Source: Burkholderia sp. D-99
GTDB lineage: Bacteria; Pseudomonadota; Gammaproteobacteria; Burkholderiales; Burkholderiaceae
DNA length: 64,000 nt
Direction of reading: 5' to 3'
Assembly (NCBI RefSeq): GCF_011605345.1
Contig: NZ_JAAOXM010000008.1
Location: 186,001 to 250,000 of the forward strand
The notes beneath the pieces were generated by a model. It was not told the origin of the DNA. It saw only the letters and a list, made by a program, of their open reading frames with translations, and ran no database searches. Made by a program: the position numbers and the translations under genes. Shown one piece after another: positions 4,548 to 21,060 of this stretch (its first letter is position 1; every line of letters starts with the position of its first letter).

Positions 4548-5170
4548 AACGGCCGTCGGTGCGGCGCACGCGATGGCGATCCGGATTGCGTGATTGGTGC
4601 AACGCGGAAGTTGACGCGATTGACGTAACGCCTGAAACCCCCGCTTTTATCGGTCGATTAACCGGGCACAGATTATCTGCGTCAGCGATTCGCAAGAAAA
4701 AATATAGTGCACATGGAATCCGTGTGGCGCCAATCGTGGCCGTGTATCGGTGTTTTCGCGGATGCGGTGATTCCGGTGTTTTTTGAGAAAAATCAAAAGA
4801 GCCGCGCGGGAAACATGCTGGATGCGGTCGGCGAGCATGCCTCGGCGGGTAAAAAATACACGATCCCGGGCCCCTGATCCGATGGGTAAACATCGACTGG
4901 AAAATGGCGTGAGTTTGATATAGCCTTGTCTGACAAAAAGCAGGGCAGTAATCAAACCAACCAGAAAGTCGCTGCAGAAAAACAAGGGGCTACCGTCATG
5001 TCATTCGACTAGTTTCGCGTTCGCAATCCAGGGCCGATTAAAAATTCATCCACGAATAAGCCGACGTCGCATTGCGACCGCCGGGGCGGATTATTTTGTC
5101 CGCGATTTTCTGCTGTTGGCCGCCCGGTGCGGCCGAGATACCAATACCAAAGCCAATAACGAGGGAAAGC
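4548..5170. other. Long intergenic region upstream of the autotransporter
   Basis: No convincing gene is seen in these 623 bases. The stretch from about 4600 to 5000 is clearly richer in A/T than the surrounding coding DNA and includes runs such as AAGAAAAAATATAG near 4693, so promoter elements of the autotransporter gene probably lie here. I could not place a -35/-10 pair with confidence. Confidence 0.5.
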
Positions 5171-8100
5171 ATGAATCTTGCGCGTTCGAAAAAAGCCGGC
5201 GAGCCGTTTCCGAGACTGCTGTTGCCCACGGGCGTTTTCCTGGCGCTGTCCGGCGCAGGCATTGTTCCCGCCTATGCGACCTGCAGCACGGCAGGCACGA
5301 CAGTGACCTGTTCCGGGATCGCGAACCCGCTGCAGCCGAGCTATTCGAACGCCGCCAACAACGTGCACGCGACGGTCAACCCCGGCGCGAGCGTCGGCGT
5401 ACTGCTCGGCGTCGGCGGCACCGCGATGTCGCTGACCGGCAACGGCGTCACGCTGACCAACAACGGCACGATCGACCCGTCCGCACTCGGCTCGGGCCTC
5501 GGCGTGCTGTCGAGCGGGGCCGTGGTCGGCAACGCGTCCGCGAGCGCGAACACCACCGTCGTCAACAACGGCACGATGAACGGCTCGACCGGCGTGGCGA
5601 TCAGCGGCGTGACGGGCATGGCGTTATCGGTCCAGAACGGTACCGGCGGCACGTCGAACATTACAAACACCGGCACGATCGGGTCCAACCCGCTGGTCGG
5701 CGCGACCCTCGTCGGCGCGGACGCCCCCGTGGTCACCGCATACGGCGGCGGCACGGTCAACATGAACAACAGCGGCACGATCAACGGCCGTGTATCGTTC
5801 GGCTCGAACGGCACGCCCGGGCAGGGCAATACGTTTACCAACTCGGGCACGATCAACGGCAGCGTGTCGTTGGGCGCGAACAGCAACAACACGTTCAATG
5901 CCATGACGGGCTCGTCGGTCAACTCGGCGGGCGGCACCGGCAGCGCGTTCAACATCACGGTCGGCCCGAACACGATGAACGTCGCGGCGACGGGCGTCGT
6001 CGACGGCGGCGCGGGCGGCAACAACACGCTCAACCTGCAGCAGCAGGGCGGCGGGCCGGCGACCGGCTCGATCAACAGCAGCAACTACATCAATTTCCAG
6101 CACCTGGACGTCGGCAGCGGTACGTGGACGCTGAGCGGTGCATCCACCGCGCAGGACGCGACGCTGAGCGGCGGCGTCGCGATCGTCGACAACAACGCGG
6201 GGCTAGGGACCGGCACGATCACGGGCAACGGCGGGGCGATCCAGAGCGCCAACTCGGCCGTCAACCTCAACAACAACGTGACGCTCGGCGCGGGCGGTCT
6301 CACGGTGCAGGGCGGCAACAATCTCGGGCTGTCCGGCTCGATCAACGGTAGCGGCAGCTTGACGCAGAACGGCACGGGGACGCTGACGCTCAGCGGCGCG
6401 AATACCTACTCGGGCGGCACCAACCTCAACAGCGGCGGCATCGTGCTCGGCAACGGCAGCGCGCTCGGCACGGGCACGCTGACCGTCGGCGGGTCAGGCA
6501 CGCTCGACACCAACACCGGCATGACGGTCGGCAACAACATCGCGATCAACACCGGTGCGACCCTCACGCTGGGCGGCAGCAACAACCTCGCGCTGTCGGG
6601 GCAGGTGTCCGGGGCCGGTGGCCTGACCAAGAACGGGGCCGCCACCACGACGCTGACGGGCGCGAACACGTATACGGGTGGCACGACGGTCAATGCGGGC
6701 ACGCTGGCGTTGGGCGCGGGCGGCTCGCTTGCGGCGACGGGCGCCGTGAACCTCGCCGGTGCGGGCGCCAGCTTCGATATCAGCGCGTCGGGGGCGAACC
6801 AGACGGTCGGCGCGCTGAGCGGCGTGGCCGGCACGACCGTCGCGCTCGGCGGCAACACGCTGACGATGGGCGATGCGACGAACCAGACGTTCGGCGGCAC
6901 GATCGGCGGCACGGGCGCGATCGTGAAGCAGGGCACCGGCACCGAAACGCTGACCGGTGCGAATACGTACACGGGCGGGACGACGATCGCGGGCGGTACG
7001 CTGGCGCTGGGCGCAGGCGGCAGTCTTGCGGCGGGCGGCGCCGTCAACCTGAGCGGCGCGGGCGCCAGCTTCGATATCAGCGCATCGGGTGCGAACCAGA
7101 CGGTCGGCGCGCTGAGCGGCGTGGCCGGCACGACCGTATCACTCGGCGGCAACGGATTGACGTTTGGCGACGGCACGAACCAGACGTTCGGCGGTTCGAT
7201 CACCGGTACGGCCGGCGTCACGAAGCAAGGTAGCGGCACCGAAACGCTGACCGGCGCGAACACGTACACCGGCGGTACGACGGTCAACGCGGGCACGCTG
7301 GCGATCGGCGCAGGCGGTTCGCTTGCGTCGACGGGCACGGTAAATCTGGCGAATGCGGGCACGACGCTCGACGTCAGCGCGTCGACCACGCCGCAGGCGA
7401 TCGGCGGTCTCGCGGGCGCGGCTGGCTCGACGGTCAATCTCGGCTCGAAAAACCTGACGCTGGGCGACGCCGGCAATCACACGTTCGGCGGCACGATCGG
7501 CGGCACGGGCGCGATCACGAAGTCAGGCACGGGCACGGAGACGCTGACGGGTACGAACACGTACACGGGCGGTACGACGATCGCGGGCGGCACGCTGGCG
7601 CTGGGCGCTGGCGGCAGCCTTGCGGCGGGTGGCGCGGTGAACCTGAGCGGCGCTGGCGCAACGTTCGACGTCAGCGGTTCAGGCGCGGCTCAGACGATCG
7701 GCGCACTGAGCGGCGTGGCCGGTTCGACGGTTGCGTTGGGCGGCAACGGATTGACGTTCGGCGACGGCACGAATCAGATGTTCGGCGGTGCGATCACGGG
7801 TACGGCCAGCGTTACAAAGCAAGGCAGCGGTACCGAAACGCTGACCGGCACGAACACGTACACGGGTGGCACGACGATCGCGAACGGCACGCTTGCGCTG
7901 GGCGCGGGCGGCTCGCTCGCGGCGGGCGGTGCCGTGAGCCTCACCGGTACGGGTGCCGGCTTCGACATCAGCGCATCGGGCGCGAACCAGACGGTCGGTG
8001 CACTGAGCGGCGTGACCGGTTCGAACATCGCACTCGGCGGCAACACGCTGACCTTCGGCACCGCGACGAACCAGACGTTCGGCGGTTCGATCGCCGGCAC

Positions 8101-11100
8101 GGGTGGGATCGTGAAGCAAGGCACCGGCACCGAAACGTTGACCGGCGCGAATACGTATACGGGTGGCACGACGGTCAACGCGGGCACGCTGGCGATCGGC
8201 GCGGGCGGTTCGCTTGCGGCGACGGGCACGGTAAATCTGGCGAATGCGGGTACGACGCTCGACGTCAGCGCGTCGACCACGCCGCAGGCGATCGGCGGAC
8301 TCTCGGGCGCGGCCGGCTCGGCGGTCAATCTGGGCTCGAAAAACCTGACGCTGGGCGACGCCGGCAATCACACGTTCGGCGGCACGATCGGTGGCACGGG
8401 CGCGATCACGAAGTCAGGCACGGGCACGGAGACGCTGACGGGTGCGAACACGTACACGGGCGGGACGACGATCGCGGGCGGCACGCTGGCGCTGGGTGCA
8501 GGCGGCTCGCTTGCGACGGGCGGCGCCGTGAGTCTCACCGGGGCGGGTGCCAGCTTCGACATCAGCGGCTCAGGCGCGGCTCAAACGATCGGCGCGCTGA
8601 GCGGCGTGGCTGGCGCGACGGTTGCGCTGGGCGGCAACGGATTGACCTTCGGTGACGGGACGAATCAGACGTTCGGCGGCGCGATCACGGGCACGGGCGG
8701 AATCACGAAGGCCGGCGCGGGCACGGAAACGCTGACGGGCACGAACACGTACACGGGCGGCACGACGGTCAATGCGGGCACGCTGGCGATCGGCGCGGGC
8801 GGGAGCCTGGCATCGACGGGTACGGTGAACCTCGCGAATACGGGCACGGCACTCGACATCAGCGCGGCGGGTGCGCCGCAGACGATCGGCACGCTGACCG
8901 GCGCGGCTGGCTCGACCGTGAACCTGGGCGGCAACACGCTGACGGCGGGCGGCAGCGCCAACGGCACGTTTGGCGGGGCGATTACGGGCACGGGCGGTTT
9001 CACGAAGGCCGGCACCGGGACCGAGACGCTGACGGGCGCCAATACGTATACGGGTGGCACGACGGTCAACGCGGGCACGCTGGCGATCGGCGCGGGCGGC
9101 AGCCTGGCATCGACGGGTACGGTTAACCTCGCGAACACGGGTACGACGCTTGACGTGAGTGGTGCGACCACGCCGCAGGCGATTGGCGCGCTTGCGGGCG
9201 CGGCTGGTGCGACAGTCAATCTTGGCGCAAACGGCCTGACGCTCGGTAACGGCGGCGGCAGCGCGACGTTCGGCGGCACGATCGCGGGTACGGGCGGGAT
9301 CACGAAGGCCGGCGCGGGCACGGAAACGCTGACGGGTGCGAACACGTACACGGGCGGCACGACGGTCGCGGGCGGCACGCTGGCGCTGGGCGCGGGCGGG
9401 AGCCTCGCGACGGGCGGCGCGGTGAGCCTGACGGGTACGGGGGCGACGCTCGATCTCAGCGCGGCGAGCACACCACAGACGTTCGGCGCGCTGAGCGGCG
9501 TGGGCGGGTCGACGATCGCGTTGGGCGGCAACGGCCTGACGTTCGGTGACGGGACGAATCAGACGTTCGGCGGCGCGATCACGGGCACGGGCGGAATCAC
9601 GAAGGCCGGCGCGGGTACGGAAACGCTGACGGGCACGAACACGTACACGGGCGGCACGACGGTCAACGCGGGCACGTTGGCGCTCGGCGCGAGCGGCAGC
9701 CTGGCGGCGACGGGCGCGGTGAACCTTGCGGGTACGGGCGCGACGCTGGACCTGAGCGCGCTGAACGGCGTCCAGATGATCGGCGCGCTGTCCGGCGTGG
9801 GCAACACGACGGTCACGCTCGGCGCGAGCGCGCTGATGCTCGGCAACGGCGGCGGCAGTGCCACCTTCGCCGGCGCGCTGACGGGCAGCGGCTCGCTGAC
9901 GAAAATCGGCAGCGGCACCGAGACGCTGACAGGCACGAACACCTACACCGGCGGCACCACGATCAATGCCGGCAAGCTGGTGATCGGCGCGGGCGGCAGC
10001 CTCGCGGCGACGGGCGCGGTCAACCTGACCACCTCGGGCGCGTCGCTCGACATCGGCGCGTCGGGTACGAACCAGACGATCGGTTCGCTGTCCGGTGTCG
10101 GCGGCACGAGCGTCACGCTCGGCGGCGGCACGCTCACGTTCGGCGATAGCTCGAACCAGACCTTCAGCGGCGCGCTCAGCGGCACGGGCGGGATCACGAA
10201 GGCGGGCAGCGGCACGGAAACGCTGACCGGCCAGAACACCTACAGCGGCGCGACGACGATCAACGCGGGCAATCTCGTGATCGGCGCGGGCGGCGGGCTG
10301 TCCGGCTCGACCACCGTCAATCTCGGCGCGTCGGGCACGGGCTTCACGCTGGGCGCGGGCGCGGGATCGCAGACGATCGGCGGGCTGGCCGGGGTCGCGG
10401 GCAGCACGGTGTCGCTGGGCACGAATCCGCTGACGCTGTCCGGCTCGGCGAACACGTCGTTTGCCGGCACGCTCGGCGGCGCAGGCGGGCTCGTGAAGAG
10501 CGGCACCGGCACGCAGACGCTGTCGGGCAACAACACCTACACGGGCGGTACGACGGTCACGGGCGGCGCGCTCGTGCTCGGCAGCAACGGCGCGCTCGGC
10601 ACCGGCGCGCTGACGGTCAGCGCACCGAGCACGATCGACACGACGACTGCGGTGAATCTCGCCAATTCCGTGACGGTGAACGCCAGCACGACGATCGGCG
10701 GCTCCGCGAATCTGACGCTGTCGGGCGTGGTGTCGGGCTCGGGCGGATTTGTCAAGAATGGCCAGAGCACGCTGACGCTGAACAACAGCAACACGTTCCA
10801 GGGCGGCACGGTGCTGAACAGCGGCTCGCTCGTGATCGGCAACAGCGGCGCACTCGGCACGGGCGGCCTGACGCTGAACGGCGGCAATGTCGCGCTCGGC
10901 GGCACCCAGCTGACGCTCGGCGGGCTCAGCGGCGCGAGCGGCGGCACGCTCGACACTGGCACCGGCGGTCTCACGGTCGAGGGCGGCGGTGCCTACGGCG
11001 GCACGCTGGCGGGTAACGGCTCGCTGACGAAGAGCGGCAGCAGCACGCTGATCCTGTCCGGCGCGAACAGCTACGCCGGCGGCACGACCATCAGCGCCGG

Positions 11101-12937
11101 CACGCTGCAGATCGGCAACGGCGGCACGTCGGGCAGCATCGCCGGCAACGTCGCCGATGCCGGCGCACTGGTCTTCAACCGCTCGGACAACCTGTCGTTC
11201 GGCGGCGCGATCTCCGGCGCGGGCTCGCTGACGCAGGCCGGCAGCGGTCAACTGACGCTGACGGGCACGAACACGCTGAGCGGCCCGACCACGGTCAGCG
11301 CGGGCACGCTCGCCGTCAACGGTTCGCTCGGCCAGTCGACGGTGACCGTGCAGAACGGTGCGACGGTCACGGGCACTGGCACGATCGGCGGCCTCGTGGT
11401 GCAGGGCGGCGCGACGGCGGCCGCGTCACAACCGGGCGCGGCGCTGAACGTGGGCGGCAACGTCACGTTCCAGCCGGGTTCGACGTTCCAGGTCGCGGCC
11501 ACGCCGCAGCAAAGCGGCAGCCTCGCGGCCAGCGGCACGGCGACGCTGAACGGCGGCACCGTGCAGGTGCTCGCGAACCAGAGCGGCTACCAGCCGAGCA
11601 CGACCTACACGATCGTGACCGCGGCGTCGGGCGTGCAGGGCGCGTTCAGCCAGGTGAATGCGAACTACGCGTTCCTGATGCCGACGCTCAGCTACGACCC
11701 GAATCACGTGTACCTGCGACTGGTCCAGAACGGCACGTCGCTGCCGGACGTCGCGACGACGCCCAACCAGCGTTCGGTCGCGACCGCGCTTGGCGGGCTC
11801 GGCGCCGGCAACCCGCTGTACGACGCGGTGCTGACGACCGACGCGCCCACCGCACGCCGCGCATACGGGTTGCTCGACGGCGAACTGCAGGCGAGCCTGA
11901 AGAGCATGCTGCTGCTCGACAGCCGCTATGTGCGCGACGCGGTGACCGATCGCGTCCGCCAGGGCCTCGCGCCCGGATCGGGCCCGCTTGCCGCGCTGTC
12001 GTCGGGCGGCGCCGCGCTGTGCGGCGACAACACGGCCGGCGCGGTCGACCCGACGCTGCCGCCGGAACGCCGGATCGGCTCGCGTGAAGGCTGCTACGGC
12101 GGCACGCCTTATCAACCGGTTGTCTGGGGGCAGGCGTTCGGCGGCCGCAGCCGACTCACCGGCGACGGCAACGCGTCGACGATCAACCGCAGCATGACGG
12201 GCTTCATCGCCGGTGCCGACATGGCGCTCAACGACAAGTGGCGTGCGGGTCTGGCCGCGGGTGTCACGCACAGCTCGCTCGACAACGACCAGAGTTCGTC
12301 GGCGTCGGTGAACAGCTACTACCTGTCGCTGTACGGCGGCGCGCAGTACGGTGCGCTCGGCGTGCGCGGCGGCGCGTCGTACACGTGGTACCGGATCAAC
12401 AGCGATCGCAATCCGGGCTTCGCGGGCTTCTCGGATCACGATTCGGCCGGCTACGACGCGAATTCGGCGCAGGTGTTCGGGGAAGTCGGCTACGCGCTGC
12501 CGGTTGGCCCCGTGGCGATCGAACCGTTCGCGGGCCTCGCGTATGTGAACCTGCATACCGACGGCTATACGGAAACAGGTGGCGCGGCCGCGCTGCGTGC
12601 CGGCGGCGAGACGACCCACGTCGGCTTCTCGACCCTCGGTTTGCGCGCGGCGTCGCAACTCGGCTCGATCGCGAGCGGCACGTTCACCGCGCGCGGGACG
12701 GTCGGCTGGCGGCATGCGTTCGGCAACGCGAGTCCGTCGTCGTCGTTCACGTTCGCGAACGGCGGCACGTCGTTCCAGGTGTCGGGCGTGCCGATTGCTC
12801 GCGACAGCGCCGTGCTCGAGGCCGGTATCGACGCGAACATCACGAAGCGCCTGACGCTCGGCCTCACGTACAGCGGCCAGTACGGCAGCCGCGTGCGTGA
12901 CAACGCGATCCTCGGCAACATCCTGTGGAAGTTCTGA
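5171..12937 (+). CDS. Giant type Va autotransporter with tandem 99-residue passenger repeats
   Basis: Encodes 2588 residues from an ATG preceded by GAGGGAAAG. A signal peptide ends near PAYA (about residue 36). The passenger is almost wholly Gly/Ala/Thr/Asn-rich beta-helix sequence. From about residue 495 to 1800 it holds around 13 tandem copies of a 99-residue unit, each with an ANTYTGGTT element typical of the autotransporter-associated beta-strand (PATR) repeat. Two unit types tend to alternate, one with [18 protein letters not shown] and one with [17 protein letters not shown]. From about residue 2310 an autotransporter beta-domain begins ([12 protein letters not shown]) and ends in the outer-membrane signature ILWKF with terminal Phe. 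Such proteins are secreted through their own barrel and usually act as adhesins or in aggregation. No catalytic motif is seen. Near-identical repeats make copy-number change likely. Confidence 0.95.
6660..10560 (+). repeat. About 13 tandem 297-bp repeats inside the autotransporter gene
   Basis: The motif coding for ANTYTGGTT recurs near 6662, 6961, 7258, 7555, 7852, 8149, 8446, 8743, 9040, 9340, 9637, 9937, 10234 and 10530, a period of about 297 bases (99 codons) with small variation. Copies between about 7000 and 9700 are near-identical over long stretches and keep the frame, so recombination or slippage would add or remove whole units. Flanking copies are more diverged. Confidence 0.93.
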
Positions 12938-15744: not shown

Positions 15745-15809
15745 GCTCAACGAGTTAGGTGTCCGATGCGCAGGATATCCACAAGCTTGCCAACACAATC
15801 TGTGGAGAA
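15745..15809 (+). repeat. 65-bp DnaA-box-like element, copy 1
   Basis: First of nine copies in the window, all 65 bp long and in the same orientation. General layout: a GATCAA start (here GCTCAA), a variable arm with a TTAG or TTG core, then CAGGATATCCACA, a nearly constant AGCTTGCCAACA, and a final TGTGGA box. The two ends of the right half form an inverted repeat (TATCCACA and TGTGGA) whose arms match DnaA boxes: ATATCCACA at 15775 and, reading the other strand, TTCTCCACA at 15801-15809. The 498-base convergent gap from 15665 to 16162 holds copies 1-3 and no gene. ORFs crossing copies give peptides such as LPTQSV or YPHACQHNLW and are not genes. Confidence 0.92.
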
Positions 15810-15909
15810 CCGGCCGGCCCCGGGCCGGGTGTGCGGCGCGTGCCGTGCGAAAGCGCGTGCGCTGCCACGCGGTTGACCGCGCAAGGTCCGCGTAATGAAT
15901 CCCCTTTTG

Positions 15910-15974
15910 GATCAGCGTGTTACGCGTCGCATTGGAGGGATATCCACAGGCTTGCCAACATATTCTGTGGATAA
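15910..15974 (+). repeat. 65-bp element, copy 2 (perfect DnaA box)
   Basis: Begins GATCAG. The right box reads TGTGGATAA at 15966-15974, which is a perfect TTATCCACA DnaA box on the minus strand. The left box is ATATCCACA. The left arm differs most from the consensus. Confidence 0.9.
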
Positions 15975-16086
15975 CTTGCAATCGATTGCGTCGCGACAGT
16001 TGAGGATCGGGCCGCCGGGGGACCGGCTCGCGAAGCCCGTGCACACGGGCTGCCCGATGTCTGCGTCGGCGCGCTAATTCGTGCGC

Positions 16087-16151
16087 GATCAAGGGCTTAG
16101 GCCCCGGGTACCCAGGATATCCACATCCTTGCCAACATTTTCTGTGGACAA
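16087..16151 (+). repeat. 65-bp element, copy 3
   Basis: Begins GATCAAGGGCTTAGG. The right box is TGTGGACAA (TTGTCCACA on the other strand). The spacer carries TCCTTGCC in place of AGCTTGCC. It ends 12 bases before the stop codon end of the LysR gene. Confidence 0.9.
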
Positions 16152-16162
16152 GCAGGGCCGTG

Positions 16163-17053
16163 TCATTCGGCCTGCGCCGTGGCGGCCGCTTCGGCCACGA
16201 TCCAGTCGCGAAAGAGCGTCATTGCCGGCGTGAGCGGCTTCGACTTCAGCGAGGTGAGCCAGTAGCCGCCGGCGCGCACGTCGATGTCGAGCGGCCGTGC
16301 GAGCAGCCCGAGCTGCAGTTCGCGCGCGAACATGCACGCCGGCGCGAGTGCGACGCCCGCGCCCTGCATCGCGGCCTCGACCATCAGCCGCGACGAATCG
16401 AACACGGGCCCGTTGACCGCCCACGGTGCGAGCTGCGCGGCATCGAACCAGCCGAGCCATTCGTCGGTGCGGTACGAGCGCAGCAGCGTTTCGTTCGCGA
16501 GATCGGCCGGTTGCGCGAGGCGCCGTGCGATGTCCGGCGCGCACAGCGCGGTGAGCGGTGCGTCGAGCAGGCGCTCGTTGCGCGTCGCCGGCCAGCTGCC
16601 TTCCCCGAAGCGGATCGCGAAGTCGAGGCCCTCGGCGGCGAGATCGACGACGTTGTTGTTGGTCCGCAGCCGCAGTTCGACGAACGGGTGCGTATCGCCG
16701 AACTGCTTCAATCGCGGCATTAGCCAGCCTAGGGCAAAGGTGCCGACGACGCCGAGCGTCAGCACCTCGCGGAAGCGCCCGCCGTCGAACTGCTTGAGCA
16801 CCGTCTCGATGCGGCTGAACGCGTCGCTCAGTACGGGTAGCAGCGCGCGCCCCTCGTCGGTGAGCCCGAGCCCGCGCGGCAGTCGTGTGAACAGCGTGCA
16901 GCCGAGCCGCTCCTCGAGCGAGCGCACCTGCTGGCTGACCGCGGCCTGGGTCACGCTCAGCTCAAGGCCGGCGCGCGTGAAGTTCAGGTGGCGCGCCGAC
17001 GATTCGAACGCGCGCAGGGCATTGAGCGGAAGATGAGGGCGGAGCTTGGTCAT
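16163..17053 (-). CDS. penR: LysR-family regulator of the adjacent beta-lactamase (PenR/AmpR type)
   Basis: Encodes 296 residues. The N-terminal winged helix-turn-helix (about 8-67) contains LNALRAFESSARHLNFTRAG and the recognition part TQAAVSQQVRSLEERLG. The rest is the two-lobed LysR effector domain, starting near EVLTLGVVGTFALGWLMP, a segment typical of AmpR and GcvA-like regulators. AmpR-type proteins sense muropeptides and switch between repressor and activator of a divergent beta-lactamase. Divergent arrangement with a 128-base gap to the pen gene is the classical ampR-ampC/penR-pen layout and supports the name. The start is the ATG at 17053. Confidence 0.9.
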   Translation of the reverse strand: MTKLRPHLPLNALRAFESSARHLNFTRAGLELSVTQAAVSQQVRSLEERLGCTLFTRLPRGLGLTDEGRALLPVLSDAFSRIETVLKQFDGGRFREVLTLGVVGTFALGWLMPRLKQFGDTHPFVELRLRTNNNVVDLAAEGLDFAIRFGEGSWPATRNERLLDAPLTALCAPDIARRLAQPADLANETLLRSYRTDEWLGWFDAAQLAPWAVNGPVFDSSRLMVEAAMQGAGVALAPACMFARELQLGLLARPLDIDVRAGGYWLTSLKSKPLTPAMTLFRDWIVAEAAATAQAE

Positions 17054-17084
17054 AAGAATTTCTTTTGTCAGCGCTCAATTATCG

Positions 17085-17099
17085 TTGCTTGTCAGGCAA
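17085..17099. promoter_or_regulatory. Candidate PenR (LysR-type) binding site
   Basis: The sequence TTGC-N7-GCAA forms a dyad containing the T-N11-A pattern of LysR-type sites. It lies 32 bases upstream of the penR start and 83 bases upstream of the beta-lactamase start, in the only shared regulatory gap. Assignment is by position and pattern only. Confidence 0.5.
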
Positions 17100-17181
17100 C
17101 CGTAAAGTCACGATAGTGCTGTCTCGGCGGCCGGCCGTTTTCAACATCGATTCGCCTCCATTCCATCACGAGACAACCGAC

Positions 17182-18120
17182 ATGACCTACTCATCGAAAC
17201 GTCGAACCCTGTTGCTGGCCGTCGCGACGGCGCCGCTGGTTCTCACCGTCACCGCGTGCGCGTCGCGGCAGGCCGCCGCGCCGGACGAGGCAACCGCCGC
17301 GGCCGCGGCTGCGGCGGCGGCCGTGGCGCCCGCTGCCGCCGGGCAAATGCTGGCCGAGCTCGAAAGCAGCGTGGGCGGCCGCCTCGGCGTGTGCGCGATC
17401 GACATCGCGAGCGGCCGGGTCGTCGAGCATCGCGCGGACGAACGCTTCCCGTTCTGCAGCACGTTCAAGGCGATGCTGAGTGCGGCGGTGCTCGCGCAGA
17501 GCGTCGAGCGCCCGGCGTTGCTGCAACAGCGCGTGACATATACCAGGGCCGACCTCGTCAACTATTCGCCGGTGTCGGAGAAGCATGTCGACGAAGGCAT
17601 GACGGTCGCCGCGCTGTGCGAGGCCGCGATCCAGTACAGCGACAACTCGGCCGCGAACCTGCTGATGAAGCTGCTCGGCGGCCCGTCGGCGGTGACGGCC
17701 TACGCGCGCTCGATCGGCGACGACACGTTCAGGCTCGATCGATGGGAGACCGAACTGAATACCGCACTGCCGGGCGATCTGCGCGACACGACGACACCGG
17801 CCGCGATGGCCGCGAGCGTGCGCGTGCTGATGCTCGGCGATGCGCTGCCGGCCGCGCAGCGTGCGCAGCTCGTGACGTGGATGCGGGGCAACAAGGTTGG
17901 CGACAAGCGGCTCCGTGCGGGCGTGCCGGCCGGGTGGACGGTCGGCGACAAGACGGGCACCGGCGACTACGGGACGACCAACGACGCGGGTGTCGTGTGG
18001 TCGCCGTCGCGTGCGCCGATCGCAGTGGCCGTGTACTACACGCAGGCGCGTGCCGATGCGCGCGCGAAGGACGACGTGATCGCATCGGTCGCGCGCATCG
18101 TGGTCCAGGCACTCGGTTGA
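17182..18120 (+). CDS. penB: Class A beta-lactamase, Burkholderia Pen type
   Basis: Encodes 312 residues. All class A motifs are present: STFK with Ser93/Lys96 (Ambler 70/73), SDN at 152-154, the omega-loop ETELN with Glu188 (Ambler 166), and KTG at 256-258. It opens the beta-lactam ring in the periplasm. The leader has twin Arg (7-8) and a lipobox VTAC, so Cys26 is likely lipidated; B. pseudomallei PenA is known to be a membrane-bound lipoprotein. A run of nine Ala follows. Cys precedes the active Ser, but the KTGTGDYG segment has no cysteine to pair with it, so the KPC-type disulfide is absent. The symbol rests on family and penR linkage; penA is used in some species. The ATG at 17182 is chosen because it begins the signal peptide. 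Confidence 0.93.
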   Translation: MTYSSKRRTLLLAVATAPLVLTVTACASRQAAAPDEATAAAAAAAAAVAPAAAGQMLAELESSVGGRLGVCAIDIASGRVVEHRADERFPFCSTFKAMLSAAVLAQSVERPALLQQRVTYTRADLVNYSPVSEKHVDEGMTVAALCEAAIQYSDNSAANLLMKLLGGPSAVTAYARSIGDDTFRLDRWETELNTALPGDLRDTTTPAAMAASVRVLMLGDALPAAQRAQLVTWMRGNKVGDKRLRAGVPAGWTVGDKTGTGDYGTTNDAGVVWSPSRAPIAVAVYYTQARADARAKDDVIASVARIVVQALG

Positions 18121-18123
18121 GAC

Positions 18124-18171
18124 GTGCGGTGCGGCGTGCGTGACGCGATGCGCATGCACGCCGTGCCGCAC
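18124..18171 (+). terminator. Long hairpin just after the beta-lactamase gene
   Basis: Bases 18124-18139 pair with 18156-18171 over 16 positions, with two G-U wobbles and a 16-base loop containing ATGCGCAT. It begins three bases after the pen stop codon. No T-run follows, so it may be a mRNA-stabilising hairpin or a factor-assisted terminator rather than a simple intrinsic one. Confidence 0.45.
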
Positions 18172-18199
18172 TCGTGACCCGCGCGATCAAACGTTGTGC

Positions 18200-18264
18200 G
18201 ATCAACGACTTAGGTCACGCATGCTCAGGATATCCACATGCTTGCCAACAAAAATTGTGGACAA
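18200..18264 (+). repeat. 65-bp element, copy 4
   Basis: Begins GATCAACGACTTAGG. Left box ATATCCACA, right box TGTGGACAA, with AAAAATTG replacing the usual CAATCTG before it. A second GATCAA lies just upstream at 18184. The convergent gap 18121-18599 holds copies 4-6 and no gene. Confidence 0.9.
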
Positions 18265-18338
18265 GCCCGTGCGCGGCCGCGCACGGCGTGGCGCGGGCCA
18301 CCGTGCCGCATTTGAAGCGGGGCGGACAAAGTCTTTCG

Positions 18339-18403
18339 GATCAAGCGCTTGCCCGTGGTATGCGCAGGCTATCCACACGCTTGCCAACACAATCTGTGGA
18401 CAA
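18339..18403 (+). repeat. 65-bp element, copy 5 (extended form)
   Basis: Begins GATCAAGCGCTTG. Left box CTATCCACA, right box TGTGGACAA. Similarity to copy 6 continues upstream through GACAAAGTCTTTCG to a GTGCCGCATTTGA start at 18302, so copies 5 and 6 form a 102-bp direct repeat (18302-18403 and 18474-18575). Confidence 0.92.
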
Positions 18404-18510
18404 ACCGCCTTGCCCGCGCGGAAGGCGGCCCGTCATGTGGCGAGACGGCGTGCGGGCGGCACTTTGCGGGCCGCGTGCCGCATTTGAGGCAGCGCGGACA
18501 AAGTCTTTCG

Positions 18511-18575
18511 GATCAAGCGCTTGGTCGCGGTATGCGCAGGCTATCCACATGCTTGCCAACACAATCTGTGGACAA
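18511..18575 (+). repeat. 65-bp element, copy 6 (extended form)
   Basis: Near-identical to copy 5, which lies 172 bases upstream: only a few bases differ in the left arm and one in the spacer (CATG versus CACG). It ends 24 bases before the stop-codon end of the small membrane-protein gene on the other strand. Confidence 0.92.
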
Positions 18576-18599
18576 GCCTGGCGGCCGCGATGGCGATGG

Positions 18600-18800
18600 T
18601 CAGGGCTGCCGATCGTCGACCGTGGGCCAGCGCACGAACGCGAACACCCACAACATGACGAAGTTCAGGACCGGGACGAACATCGTCAGGATCCACCAGC
18701 CCGAATGCCCGGTGCGCCGGACGATGCGGACGTACGGATAAATGACGACGGCGACGAGCACGAGTGAGACGACCAACTGCCACGCGGTGAAGTGTTCCAT
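18600..18800 (-). CDS. Small two-helix membrane protein
   Basis: Encodes 66 residues; the ATG at 18800 has GAGGAAGG six bases upstream. Two hydrophobic helices (about 7-24 and 35-56) are separated by a short basic loop YVRIVRRTGHSGWW, so this is an inner-membrane protein with a positively charged connecting loop. The HSGWW motif recalls DUF805-type small membrane proteins, but the match is too short to be sure. It lies alone between repeat copies 6 and 7, opposite to the beta-lactamase gene. Confidence 0.72.
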   Translation of the reverse strand: MEHFTAWQLVVSLVLVAVVIYPYVRIVRRTGHSGWWILTMFVPVLNFVMLWVFAFVRWPTVDDRQP

Positions 18801-19022
18801 GACCTTCCTCGGAGTGAAGTGTCGGGCGGAGCGGCCGGCCCGTTGAGCCGTCGCGCGGAGCCGGCGATGCGCGGCCGCGTGCGGCTCGCGTGATCTTGAC
18901 GCGTGGCTGGCGCGAGCGTCAAGGCGAGGGCGGTGCGCGTCTGTCGCACGGGAGCGTCCGCATGCACGCCTGTCCGGGCTGCACGTTGCCGCAACCGTGA
19001 CGCGGCGCATGAACCGCAGGCC

Positions 19023-19087
19023 GATCAACGAGTTAGCGCAGCCTTGCGCAGGATATCCACAAGCTTGCCAACAAAATCTGTGGGTAA
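19023..19087 (+). repeat. 65-bp element, copy 7
   Basis: Begins GATCAACGAGTTAG. Left box ATATCCACA, right box TGTGGGTAA (TTACCCACA), the only copy with G in place of A at that position. The 560-base gap 18801-19360 holds copies 7 and 8 plus the promoter of the small membrane protein; no other gene is seen. Confidence 0.9.
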
Positions 19088-19227
19088 GTGGCGCAGCGCA
19101 TGGCTGGCGCGTGTGCGCAGGCTGCGACGTGCGTCGTCGTGGCGTCGTGATGCGAAGTGCGGCGCAGCGGTGTGTACGGCGGCCGTCACCGGGGCCTCGT
19201 CTGCATCACGCGTGCCAAAGTCCATCG

Positions 19228-19292
19228 GATCAAGGGTTTAGCGTTGCGGTGCGCAGGATATCCACAAGCTTGCCAACATTTTCTGTGGAGAA
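19228..19292 (+). repeat. 65-bp element, copy 8
   Basis: Begins GATCAAGGGTTTAG, preceded by a degenerate form of the extended arm (CAAAGTCCATCG). Right box TGTGGAGAA, as in copy 1; the ATTTTCTG before it is as in copy 3. Confidence 0.9.
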
Positions 19293-19360
19293 GTCGGGGT
19301 GCGCCCGCGACGCACGGGACACCCGCGAATGCCACGTGTTGCCGCGATTCGGGCGTGCAC

Positions 19361-19729
19361 TCACGCAGTGCAGATACCGGCCACGCCGACTTTCTGGAAC
19401 AGGTGCGGGCTCGCGACGGCGGACGACGGATAGGCCGACAGCTTGGCGACGAACTCGGGATGCGTGAAGGCCGCGCGAAACGCTTCGGTCGATTCCCAGA
19501 TCGCGTAGTTCAGGTAAGTCGGGCTGTCGCCGAGCGCCCGATGAAGCTGGGTCGAGATGAATCCCGGCTGCTGCTTCATGAATTCGGCATCGTCCTTCCA
19601 CACGGCGAGAAAGTCCGCTTCGTCGTCGGGAGCCAAAGTGAACACGTTGACGAGGACGACCGGCTCCGCGTCGATGCCGATCTGTTGCTGGATCGGAAAG
19701 GCCGGATCCATCGGCTTGAAATGAGGCAT
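19361..19729 (-). CDS. Antibiotic biosynthesis monooxygenase (ABM) domain protein
   Basis: Encodes 122 residues; the ATG at 19729 follows AAGGAGTTCCC. The single domain is a dimeric alpha/beta-barrel of the ABM type, recognisable by VVLVNVFTLAPDDEADFLAVWKD split over the first strand and helix, the PGFISTQLHR strand and YAIWESTEAF. ABM proteins are small cofactor-free or haem-binding oxygenases or stress proteins; the substrate cannot be told. It lies 40 bases downstream of the MarR gene on the same strand and is probably its operon partner and target. Confidence 0.85.
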   Translation of the reverse strand: MPHFKPMDPAFPIQQQIGIDAEPVVLVNVFTLAPDDEADFLAVWKDDAEFMKQQPGFISTQLHRALGDSPTYLNYAIWESTEAFRAAFTHPEFVAKLSAYPSSAVASPHLFQKVGVAGICTA

Positions 19730-19769
19730 GGGAACTCCTTCGGGTAGGGGTGAGGGGGTGATTGAGCGC

Positions 19770-20216
19770 TCACGTCGGTGCATCGGCGCCATGCGCGCTG
19801 GACATCGCTGACAGAACGCGGATCGCCGCGTCCAGGTCAGCCGAACTGAAGTCGCCGGCGATGTCGCGGACATGCCGTTGCCATTGCTCGACCACGGCCT
19901 GATACGCCGCATCGCCGCGAGGCGTCAGCGCGTACAAGGGGGAGCGCTTGTGTGCCGGATTGGGTAGCGACTCGACCAGCCCTTCGTCGGTCAGCACGTT
20001 GATCTGCTTCAGCACGGCCTGCCGCGTGATGCCCATTGCGTCGGCGATCTGCGGGATGTTCGGGGCAACGGGTGCCATCGCGATCGCGCCCAGTACCTGC
20101 CAGCGCGCGCTGGTCAGGCCGTGCGGGCCGGAAAAGGTGTTGCCCCATTCGATCAGCAGGCCGTTCAACCGGAATACGGACAGCGCGACGGCGGTCAACT
20201 TCGCGGATTTCGTCAT
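19770..20216 (-). CDS. MarR-family transcriptional regulator
   Basis: Encodes 148 residues from the ATG at 20216. The winged helix core reads SARWQVLGAIA, then IPQIADAMGITRQAVLKQIN as helix-turn-helix, the wing KRSPLYALTPRG and a long C-terminal helix for dimerisation. An in-frame TTG at 20273 would start inside the palindrome described next and upstream of the likely transcript start, so it is rejected, although the chosen ATG lacks a clear ribosome-binding site. MarR proteins usually repress their own operon until a phenolic or oxidising ligand binds; the linked ABM gene fits. Confidence 0.85.
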   Translation of the reverse strand: MTKSAKLTAVALSVFRLNGLLIEWGNTFSGPHGLTSARWQVLGAIAMAPVAPNIPQIADAMGITRQAVLKQINVLTDEGLVESLPNPAHKRSPLYALTPRGDAAYQAVVEQWQRHVRDIAGDFSSADLDAAIRVLSAMSSAHGADAPT

Positions 20217-20235
20217 GTTCGATACGCGTGATGAA

Positions 20236-20273
20236 TTGACAACTACTTTACGTATTAGACAACTAGTTGTCAA
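20236..20273 (-). promoter_or_regulatory. Promoter and operator of the marR-ABM operon
   Basis: On the minus strand TTGACA (20273-20268) and TAAAGT (20250-20245) are 17 bases apart, a plausible -35/-10 pair. A perfect 14-base palindrome GACAACTAGTTGTC (20258-20271) covers the -35 end and spacer. A second half-site TTGACAACTA lies at 20236-20245 across the -10 and start region. This is the expected layout for autorepression by MarR. Confidence 0.7.
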
Positions 20274-20392
20274 TTAGACGAATGCACGTCACTGAACGGG
20301 GCCGGGTAGGTAAACTGGCGACGCGATCCGGCACCGGTAACATTTGCCGCGCCGGATTGCAGGCCAACAATAAGGAACCTGGAGAGAAATCA

Positions 20393-20899
20393 GTGAGAAT
20401 GATCTGGAAAACGATCGCCGTGCCGTTGATCGCGGCGGTATGCGGCACGAGTGCATATGCCTGTCAGCCAGCCTACCGTCACACCGAGTATTTCGGCGAG
20501 AGCGCCTACCTGAGTGACGAACTTCGCGACAAGGTGATCGACGACATCCGTGCCAATCACTACACGATCATCGAATCGCAAATCGGCTTGCTGTTCTTCC
20601 CGATCGTCAGGAAGGGCGACGTGATCTACCTCGGCAACGAGCCGATCGCAACGGGAAAGGACTCGTTCTGGTACCTCGGGCAGGGCTATTACCAGTTGAA
20701 CGGTCAGCTCTATTACATGGGCGAACGTGTCGGTGCTTTCCCGAGCGGCGGGACTGTCGTCATTCATGTCGAGGATCGCACGCGTCCGCAGCCGGATGAC
20801 TATCCGAAAGGGCGTATGTATTGCCGCGCGAAGCATCACGCCAGCATTCTCGAAACCTCGACCGGCCTGCGGGTCGAGCAGATCGTTGACGACAATTGA
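20393..20899 (+). CDS. Exported protein of unknown function
   Basis: Encodes 168 residues from a GTG with GGAGAG six bases upstream; the ATG at 20399 is two codons inside. A signal peptide ends near AYA (MIWKTIAVPLIAAVCGTSAYA), leaving a Cys directly after it. The mature part has repeated Gly/Tyr-rich strands such as FWYLGQGYYQLNGQLYYMG, and a second Cys near the C-terminus (MYCRAKHH). No family is recognised. The Tyr-rich repeats faintly recall DKNYY-type repeats, but this is not enough to assign them. Likely periplasmic. Confidence 0.75.
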   Translation: MRMIWKTIAVPLIAAVCGTSAYACQPAYRHTEYFGESAYLSDELRDKVIDDIRANHYTIIESQIGLLFFPIVRKGDVIYLGNEPIATGKDSFWYLGQGYYQLNGQLYYMGERVGAFPSGGTVVIHVEDRTRPQPDDYPKGRMYCRAKHHASILETSTGLRVEQIVDDN

Positions 20900-20995
20900 G
20901 CGGGGTGGGTTGCGTGGCCGACCGGGCGCGGTGCATCACGCATCGGTTTGCAGCCGCATGGCGCATTTGCCGCGCAGCCCTGACAAACCCTTTCC

Positions 20996-21060
20996 GATCA
21001 ATGGCTTGGTGCCGTTAATGGAACGTTGTCCACAAGCTTGCCAACACAATCTGTGGAAAA
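20996..21060 (+). repeat. 65-bp element, copy 9
   Basis: Begins GATCAATGGCTTGG, preceded by GACAAACCCTTTCC, a diverged extended arm. The left box is TTGTCCACA rather than ATATCCACA, and the right box is TGTGGAAAA. It sits between the exported-protein gene and the convergent sensor-kinase gene. Confidence 0.88.

Follow-up and report, generated by a model that had tools for sequence, protein, structure and literature searches.

The closest described systems to the locus reported here are the two DnaA-reactivating sequences (DARS) of Escherichia coli, DARS1 and DARS2, which have equal box spacing and in which DnaA box I is opposed to boxes II and III (PMC5742627; here and below, cited papers are drawn on in excerpt). 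When read from E. coli genomes, the DARS1 core was TTATCCACT-ATTCC-TGTGGATAA-CCA-TGTGTATTA and the DARS2 core TTATTCACC-TTTTC-TGTGGATAG-AGT-TGTGAAGAA, with gaps of 5 and 3 in both. Each is a single locus, at a distance from oriC of 0.33 (DARS1) and 0.21 (DARS2) of the replicon (coordinates from PMC11317965); DARS2 is non-coding and spans 455 bp, with additional boxes and Fis sites. The E. coli site datA also combines DnaA boxes with an IHF site away from oriC (at 0.10, position entered by hand), and crtS of Vibrio cholerae, compared here by description and not by sequence, is a short non-coding site on chromosome 1 that is bound by RctB and linked to the timing of replication in a genome of two chromosomes. 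Here we describe a 65-bp element present in nine copies at 15745..21060 of a 64-kb stretch of Burkholderia sp. D-99 (contig NZ_JAAOXM010000008.1; hereafter the window), in which three DnaA boxes with the geometry of the DARS cores are joined to a close IHF site.

Replication timing in multi-chromosome bacteria is known in detail mainly for Vibrio, through crtS, and in 2016 an analogous mechanism was called worth exploring in Burkholderia (PMC4948915). One source (PMC5742627) describes the DARS2 layout as shared by those beta- or gamma-proteobacteria that are near E. coli, and another (PMC4245941) as conserved in gamma-proteobacteria only; the former mention means that a beta-proteobacterial DARS may already be in the literature. 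No DARS in Burkholderia was found in the excerpts searched, a set lying outside the original 2009 DARS paper, figures and supplements. What appears to be new is the joining of a DARS-type core to an IHF site close by, in multiple copies and on a secondary chromosome, and the DARS-like layout of this module suggests a so far undescribed control point for the initiation of chromosome replication.

Architecture of the 65-bp element

The nine copies were recovered as one repeat family, all on the + strand and all intergenic, between likely genes. An initial annotation, made from the letters of the window, had given their number, places, single orientation and constant 65-bp length, and all of this was borne out (9/9). 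The length is that of one composite site, which opens with an IHF-type 13-mer and closes with the last of three 9-mers set at fixed gaps, both counted in full; on the + strand the order is IHF 13-mer, 17 bp, box III (+), 3 bp, box II (+), 5 bp and box I (−). Read on the minus strand, every copy gives I> 5 nt II< 3 nt III<, which equals the arrangement of DARS1 and DARS2. The annotation had proposed two inverted DnaA-box-like 9-mers, a constant right half and a freely varying left arm. The two boxes are real but their number was wrong, as the element holds three plus the IHF site; in the right half CTTGCCAACA is constant but AGCTTGCCAACA is not, copy 9 having TGTCCACA and copy 7 TGTGGG; and the left arm does not vary freely, as a near-perfect IHF consensus (WATCAANNNNTTR) lies inside it, with 7–8 of 9 informative bases in all nine copies.

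The exact 20-mer pattern TATCCACANNCTTGCCAACA has eight matches in the 8.70-Mb genome, all on one strand and all within the cluster, against no exact match for its reversed control; with up to three mismatches, copy 9 and one stray match were gained (control, two matches). With a profile model of sequence only, built from 39 varied, box-selected copies, all nine copies were detected in their own genome at E < 5e-16 and one diverged tenth copy was found elsewhere (E = 2.6e-8), with nothing better than 0.019 beyond these ten among the 150 of 1533 candidates that were scored. In an alignment of 297 distinct copies, taken from 83 stretches of public genomes and chosen by the box part alone, the boundaries are sharp: conservation extends leftward about 11 bp beyond the IHF 13-mer into an A-tract and ends just after box I, giving a compact module of about 76 bp.

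To the E. coli box consensus TTWTNCACA, boxes I and III of the nine copies match at 7–8 of 8 informative bases and box II at 5 of 8. When 61 diverged copies were scanned with this consensus blind to position, the three expected windows ranked at the top, with mean scores of 7.31, 7.07 and 5.37 (of 8), compared with 4.81 for the fourth window and 2.25 for all windows; conservation in these copies is due in part to selection, because the model that found them had been trained on box-selected copies, a bias that the IHF test below avoids for the IHF part. Box II is the third-ranked of these windows. Among the same copies, box III ranges between TTATCCACA and TTATCAACA and box II follows approximately YTGYNAACA, so that the two boxes look alike in kind. 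The gaps were also recovered when both were left free (0–20) in a search of 300 genomes of the order, made in one orientation and with the first box fixed to TTAT: there were 21 exact three-box matches in 19 genomes, of which 18 had the gaps (5,3), the others being (11,2) twice and (5,15) once, and there were none in the control among the matches listed.

The DnaA protein encoded in the same genome is 61% identical to that of E. coli over 337 residues, and R399, R407, Q408, H434 and T435, which we take to be its DNA-contacting residues, are identical, as are L290 and D269. In E. coli, L290 is needed at DARS2 and D269 at DARS1 (PMC5742627). Also in E. coli, DnaA is found in vivo mainly at tandem boxes 2–3 bp apart, the DARS1 and DARS2 pairs among them, and the natural partner box of such a pair can be imperfect (PMC11317965). 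The reading of the 9-mers as DnaA boxes, and the link to replication control that the initial annotation had drawn from it, are thus supported by the blind scan and by the conserved residues.

At least 7 of 9 IHF bases were present at the fixed place in all 270 box-selected copies from Burkholderia records and in 20 of the 27 of another set (which includes one record labelled Burkholderia, L067), against 0.33% of random places in the same loci. The strict IHF motif stood at one distance in 237 of the 297 copies and one base off in 6, and was unmet in 54. In the nine copies the IHF site is always next to box III, at a distance of 17 bp and outside the box group; in E. coli DARS2 the IHF matches (one mismatch) are also on the box-III side, 58 and 74 bp away, whereas no match within one mismatch was found near the DARS1 core. 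Binding of both DnaA and IHF to the element is very likely. Nucleoid binding, another of the roles first proposed, may at most arise as a by-product of IHF.

Conservation and position on the two chromosomes

The check proposed with the initial annotation was a count of the motif genome-wide and across Burkholderia. With up to one mismatch, 36/36 same-genus relatives had matches, compared with 0/24 genomes from the order's other families. When two mismatches were allowed, matches were found in all 61 same-genus genomes (own included), at least seven in 54 of them; the remaining seven genomes had 1, 2, 2, 5, 5, 6 and 6, G392 having a single two-mismatch match. When 120 genomes of the family were searched with the model (E <= 1e-4), 63 had between 1 and 10 copies each, namely 11/11 of the genus and 52/109 others, and 10 of the 24 other genera were represented; scans of more than 40 genomes used stricter filters, with which weak matches are lost. 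In the other genera the copies are dispersed, in pairs or triplets (in the genomes listed), and the named records that carry them include Paraburkholderia, Caballeronia, Trinickia and Pararobbsia, among others.

In the genomes examined, which were chosen for their long contigs, the element keeps its position on each of the two chromosomes. With parB as a proxy for the origin, the array lies 0.23–0.32 of the replicon (0.70–0.91 Mb) from parB2 in 11/11 same-genus replicons with parB located; in G025, which has two parB-type matches of equal E-value, the one beside an ori2-type core was used (0.24), the other giving 0.45. A second site was found on the largest replicon, 0.38–0.45 from parB1, in all eight genomes searched with the model, as one copy in five genomes and as three tandem copies in three. 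Completeness and chromosome 2 status were deduced from contig size and parB, except for L065, the record of which is named chromosome 2. All 19 Burkholderia places, entered with one copy each, have the element oriented along the fork; the set used for position and orientation leaves out 11 partial matches and the three matches of G155. At the level of sequence, the composite site, its geometry, its conservation, its place and its copy number can thus be taken as established.

Proposed reactivation of DnaA and the alternatives

With moderate confidence, the nine elements are read as IHF-coupled DnaA assembly sites of the DARS type. On the analogy with E. coli, DARS-type reactivation ranks ahead of titration as the best reading of their function, and we infer that DnaA is reactivated here rather than inactivated or titrated, with a role in timing. 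In the proposed mechanism, DnaA would occupy the tandem boxes II and III, which are separated by 3 bp, together with box I, which faces box II across 5 bp in head-to-head orientation, while IHF would bend the DNA 17 bp beyond box III. ADP-DnaA assembled on the element would lose its ADP, as in E. coli, and the freed protein would reload ATP and become competent for initiation. With nine copies half-way down an arm of chromosome 2 and a one- or three-copy site on chromosome 1, the recharging of DnaA could be tied to the copying of both chromosomes.

Several observations weigh against this interpretation. Box II, which is TTGCCAACA in all nine copies, agrees with the consensus at just five of the eight informative positions, but is the best or equal-best box of the E. 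coli DARS; mutation of either box of an E. coli tandem pair lowered binding (PMC11317965), and a box as degenerate as this could be read by another protein. The genome of the window had no exact match in the free-gap three-box search, all its cores carrying mismatches. DARS2 needs Fis, but a conserved Fis site was not found near the nine copies, where weak or other Fis sites are possible; the full Fis consensus occurs near three of the nine, two of them sharing one site, which is about the background rate. The nearest IHF match of DARS2 is 58 bp from box III, and not 17 bp. Neither the array nor the tenth copy is at uvrB or mutH, the DARS loci of E. coli and relatives, and orientation along the fork was rejected as a general rule, as 12 of 49 elements of other genera oppose the fork. 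Finally, this geometry may be a feature of DnaA trimer sites in general and not of reactivation, because the same core is found near the chromosome-2 origin and before parE (see below). Together, the degenerate box II, the missing Fis site and these other cores leave room for titration and for other roles of DnaA. Compared with DARS2, then, the element is a module of about 76 bp that is repeated nine times and lies on a secondary chromosome; its box II is degenerate, its flanking genes are others and no conserved Fis site was found near it; compared with DARS1, it shares the core geometry and differs by its copy number and its close IHF site.

If the elements did not reactivate DnaA, a titration or inactivation array would be the next candidate, its 27 boxes and IHF sites soaking up DnaA or promoting ATP hydrolysis after the passage of the fork and so delaying re-initiation. 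This is possible but rather unlikely. Many DnaA boxes and IHF sites are indeed gathered in one origin-distant spot, and E. coli datA likewise has boxes and an IHF site, but datA requires IHF between boxes 2 and 3 (PMC4585315), whereas here IHF lies outside the compact 5/3 group in 9/9 copies. Also, the top 5/3 core score in a 6-kb datA stretch was 18 of 24, compared with 21 for DARS2 and 22 for DARS1. The layout is thus that of a DARS core, and the datA-like option offered initially is not favoured.

Improbable, to a greater degree, is a site for coordination between the chromosomes or a decoy of the chromosome-2 origin, in a role like that of crtS, which would feed either the Rep initiator or the DnaA-box module near ori2 and link the timing of chromosome 2 to the progress of the fork. 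At 3.4–4.8 kb from parB2, 6/6 same-genus genomes (including L251, L252, L255 and L256) have a near-consensus core with the box geometry of the element, and in the genome of the window a core scoring 23 of 24 (L292; C12, ~1045758) lies near a Rep_3-type initiator gene, in the chromosome-2 origin region; moreover, ori2 of B. cepacia is reported to be in contact with a large part of chromosome 1 (PMC13342612). In contrast to crtS, a chromosome 1 site to which the initiator of chromosome 2 binds, the main array is here on chromosome 2, chromosome 1 having the smaller site, and the recognisable boxes in the element are of the DnaA type (Rep iterons were not searched for).

The nine copies adjoin LysR, beta-lactamase and MarR genes in intergenic places, as would be expected of operators, or of architectural sites, that serve a local regulator of the neighbours, for instance of the LysR/beta-lactamase pair. 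However, when 23 loci were compared with ten window genes, elements were found by the fixed pattern in 22 (not in L047), and in the four loci that include both the debranching-enzyme and the histidine-kinase gene (L081, L098, L116 and L134) these two genes stay on either side of the elements. In two of the four, L081 and L098, the elements are present between the same outer genes although neither the LysR nor the beta-lactamase gene was matched, which indicates that the elements are independent of the genes among them. In addition, 25 single-copy loci (24 from other genera and one labelled Burkholderia) have no gene family in common with a 20-kb stretch of the window. An operator function is thus very unlikely, and that for the beta-lactamase/LysR pair was rejected.

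A decayed transposed element or a small RNA/hairpin family, the latter one of the roles put forward initially, is hardly credible. In favour are the fixed-length repeats with inverted arms, which pair in 83.9% of cells in register (28.6–53.0% when slid), as would any inverted pair of like boxes. Against the RNA/hairpin option, the outer-box stem shows no covariation (0.060 vs a shuffled mean of 0.071), two of its nine pairs are broken (in 25/60 and 26/59 sequences) and no Rfam family was found at the gathering score; the genus-wide conservation of the copies (36/36 and 61/61 genomes) with sharp boundaries led mobile-element decay to be rejected.

Extending the DARS-type reading, a two-chromosome DnaA clock can be proposed tentatively for Burkholderia, though we consider it doubtful. 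In such a clock, IHF-gated reactivating modules, typically eight to ten half-way along the chromosome 2 arm and one or three on the late arm of chromosome 1, would be doubled as each fork passes, and therefore ATP-DnaA would rise only after both chromosomes had progressed. The progress of both replicons would then govern when chromosome 1, and likewise the DnaA-box module near ori2, re-initiates. If the DARS-type reading itself is true, DnaA reactivation extends to the Burkholderiales as a multi-copy, portable module; the array on the second chromosome and its partner on the first provide a concrete DNA target to delete or move.

Coordinates, other three-box cores and neighbouring genes

The coordinates of the nine copies are collected in Table 1. 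Copy 2 has a perfect TTATCCACA as box I, and box III of copy 9 is TTGTCCACA. Copies 5 and 6 are probably a recent tandem duplication, because the 105 bp around them are 92% identical (repeat family D2).

Table 1. Positions in the window of the nine elements and their sites. In brackets, matching bases out of 9 informative bases (IHF) or 8 informative bases (each DnaA box).
Copy	Element	Strand	IHF 13-mer	Box III (+)	Box II (+)	Box I (−)
1	15745..15809	+	15745-15757 (7/9)	15775-15783 (7/8)	15787-15795 (5/8)	15801-15809 (7/8)
2	15910..15974	+	15910-15922 (7/9)	15940-15948 (7/8)	15952-15960 (5/8)	15966-15974 (8/8)
3	16087..16151	+	16087-16099 (8/9)	16117-16125 (7/8)	16129-16137 (5/8)	16143-16151 (7/8)
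4	18200..18264	+	18200-18212 (8/9)	18230-18238 (7/8)	18242-18250 (5/8)	18256-18264 (7/8)
5	18339..18403	+	18339-18351 (8/9)	18369-18377 (7/8)	18381-18389 (5/8)	18395-18403 (7/8)
6	18511..18575	+	18511-18523 (8/9)	18541-18549 (7/8)	18553-18561 (5/8)	18567-18575 (7/8)
7	19023..19087	+	19023-19035 (8/9)	19053-19061 (7/8)	19065-19073 (5/8)	19079-19087 (7/8)
8	19228..19292	+	19228-19240 (8/9)	19258-19266 (7/8)	19270-19278 (5/8)	19284-19292 (7/8)
9	20996..21060	+	20996-21008 (8/9)	21026-21034 (7/8)	21038-21046 (5/8)	21052-21060 (8/8)

The diverged tenth copy is flanked by genes for a PALP enzyme and a DUF3574 protein, with a penicillin-binding-protein gene adjacent. A canonical three-box core with up to three mismatches was found in 21 of 22 genomes (control, 0/22), part of the matches being the IHF elements themselves. 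In the genome of the window, a core with DARS geometry lies about 30 bp upstream of the likely start of parE (L294 ~5048; C29:174047), and similar cores were seen in six other same-genus genomes. Another core, CTATCCACANNNNNTGTGGATAACTTTGTTGAAAA (L291 ~4995; C8:100494), adjoins a Mg-chelatase/YifB-type gene; cores nearly identical to it occur in several other genera, in L295 between priA and hemE. Two further loci of this genome, L151 and L152, hold bare three-box cores without the IHF part, and L152 may belong to a third replicon because the same sequence is on the third replicon in G016. In L230 (G139 contig 4, 589 kb), a pair of elements lies about 5 kb from the parB of a further replicon. 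In the dnaA–rpmH interval of this genome a DnaA box was seen by eye, but no element was detected with the model (150 of 1533 candidates scored), and sharing of the element with oriC1 was rejected.

Within the window, at 16163-18120, a gene for a LysR-type regulator and a beta-lactamase-family gene are transcribed divergently, and the pair is bordered by three elements to its left and three to its right. Further upstream, at 5072-12937 (+), an open frame of 2621 residues has, as judged by eye, repeated glycine-rich units and an autotransporter-like barrel at its end.

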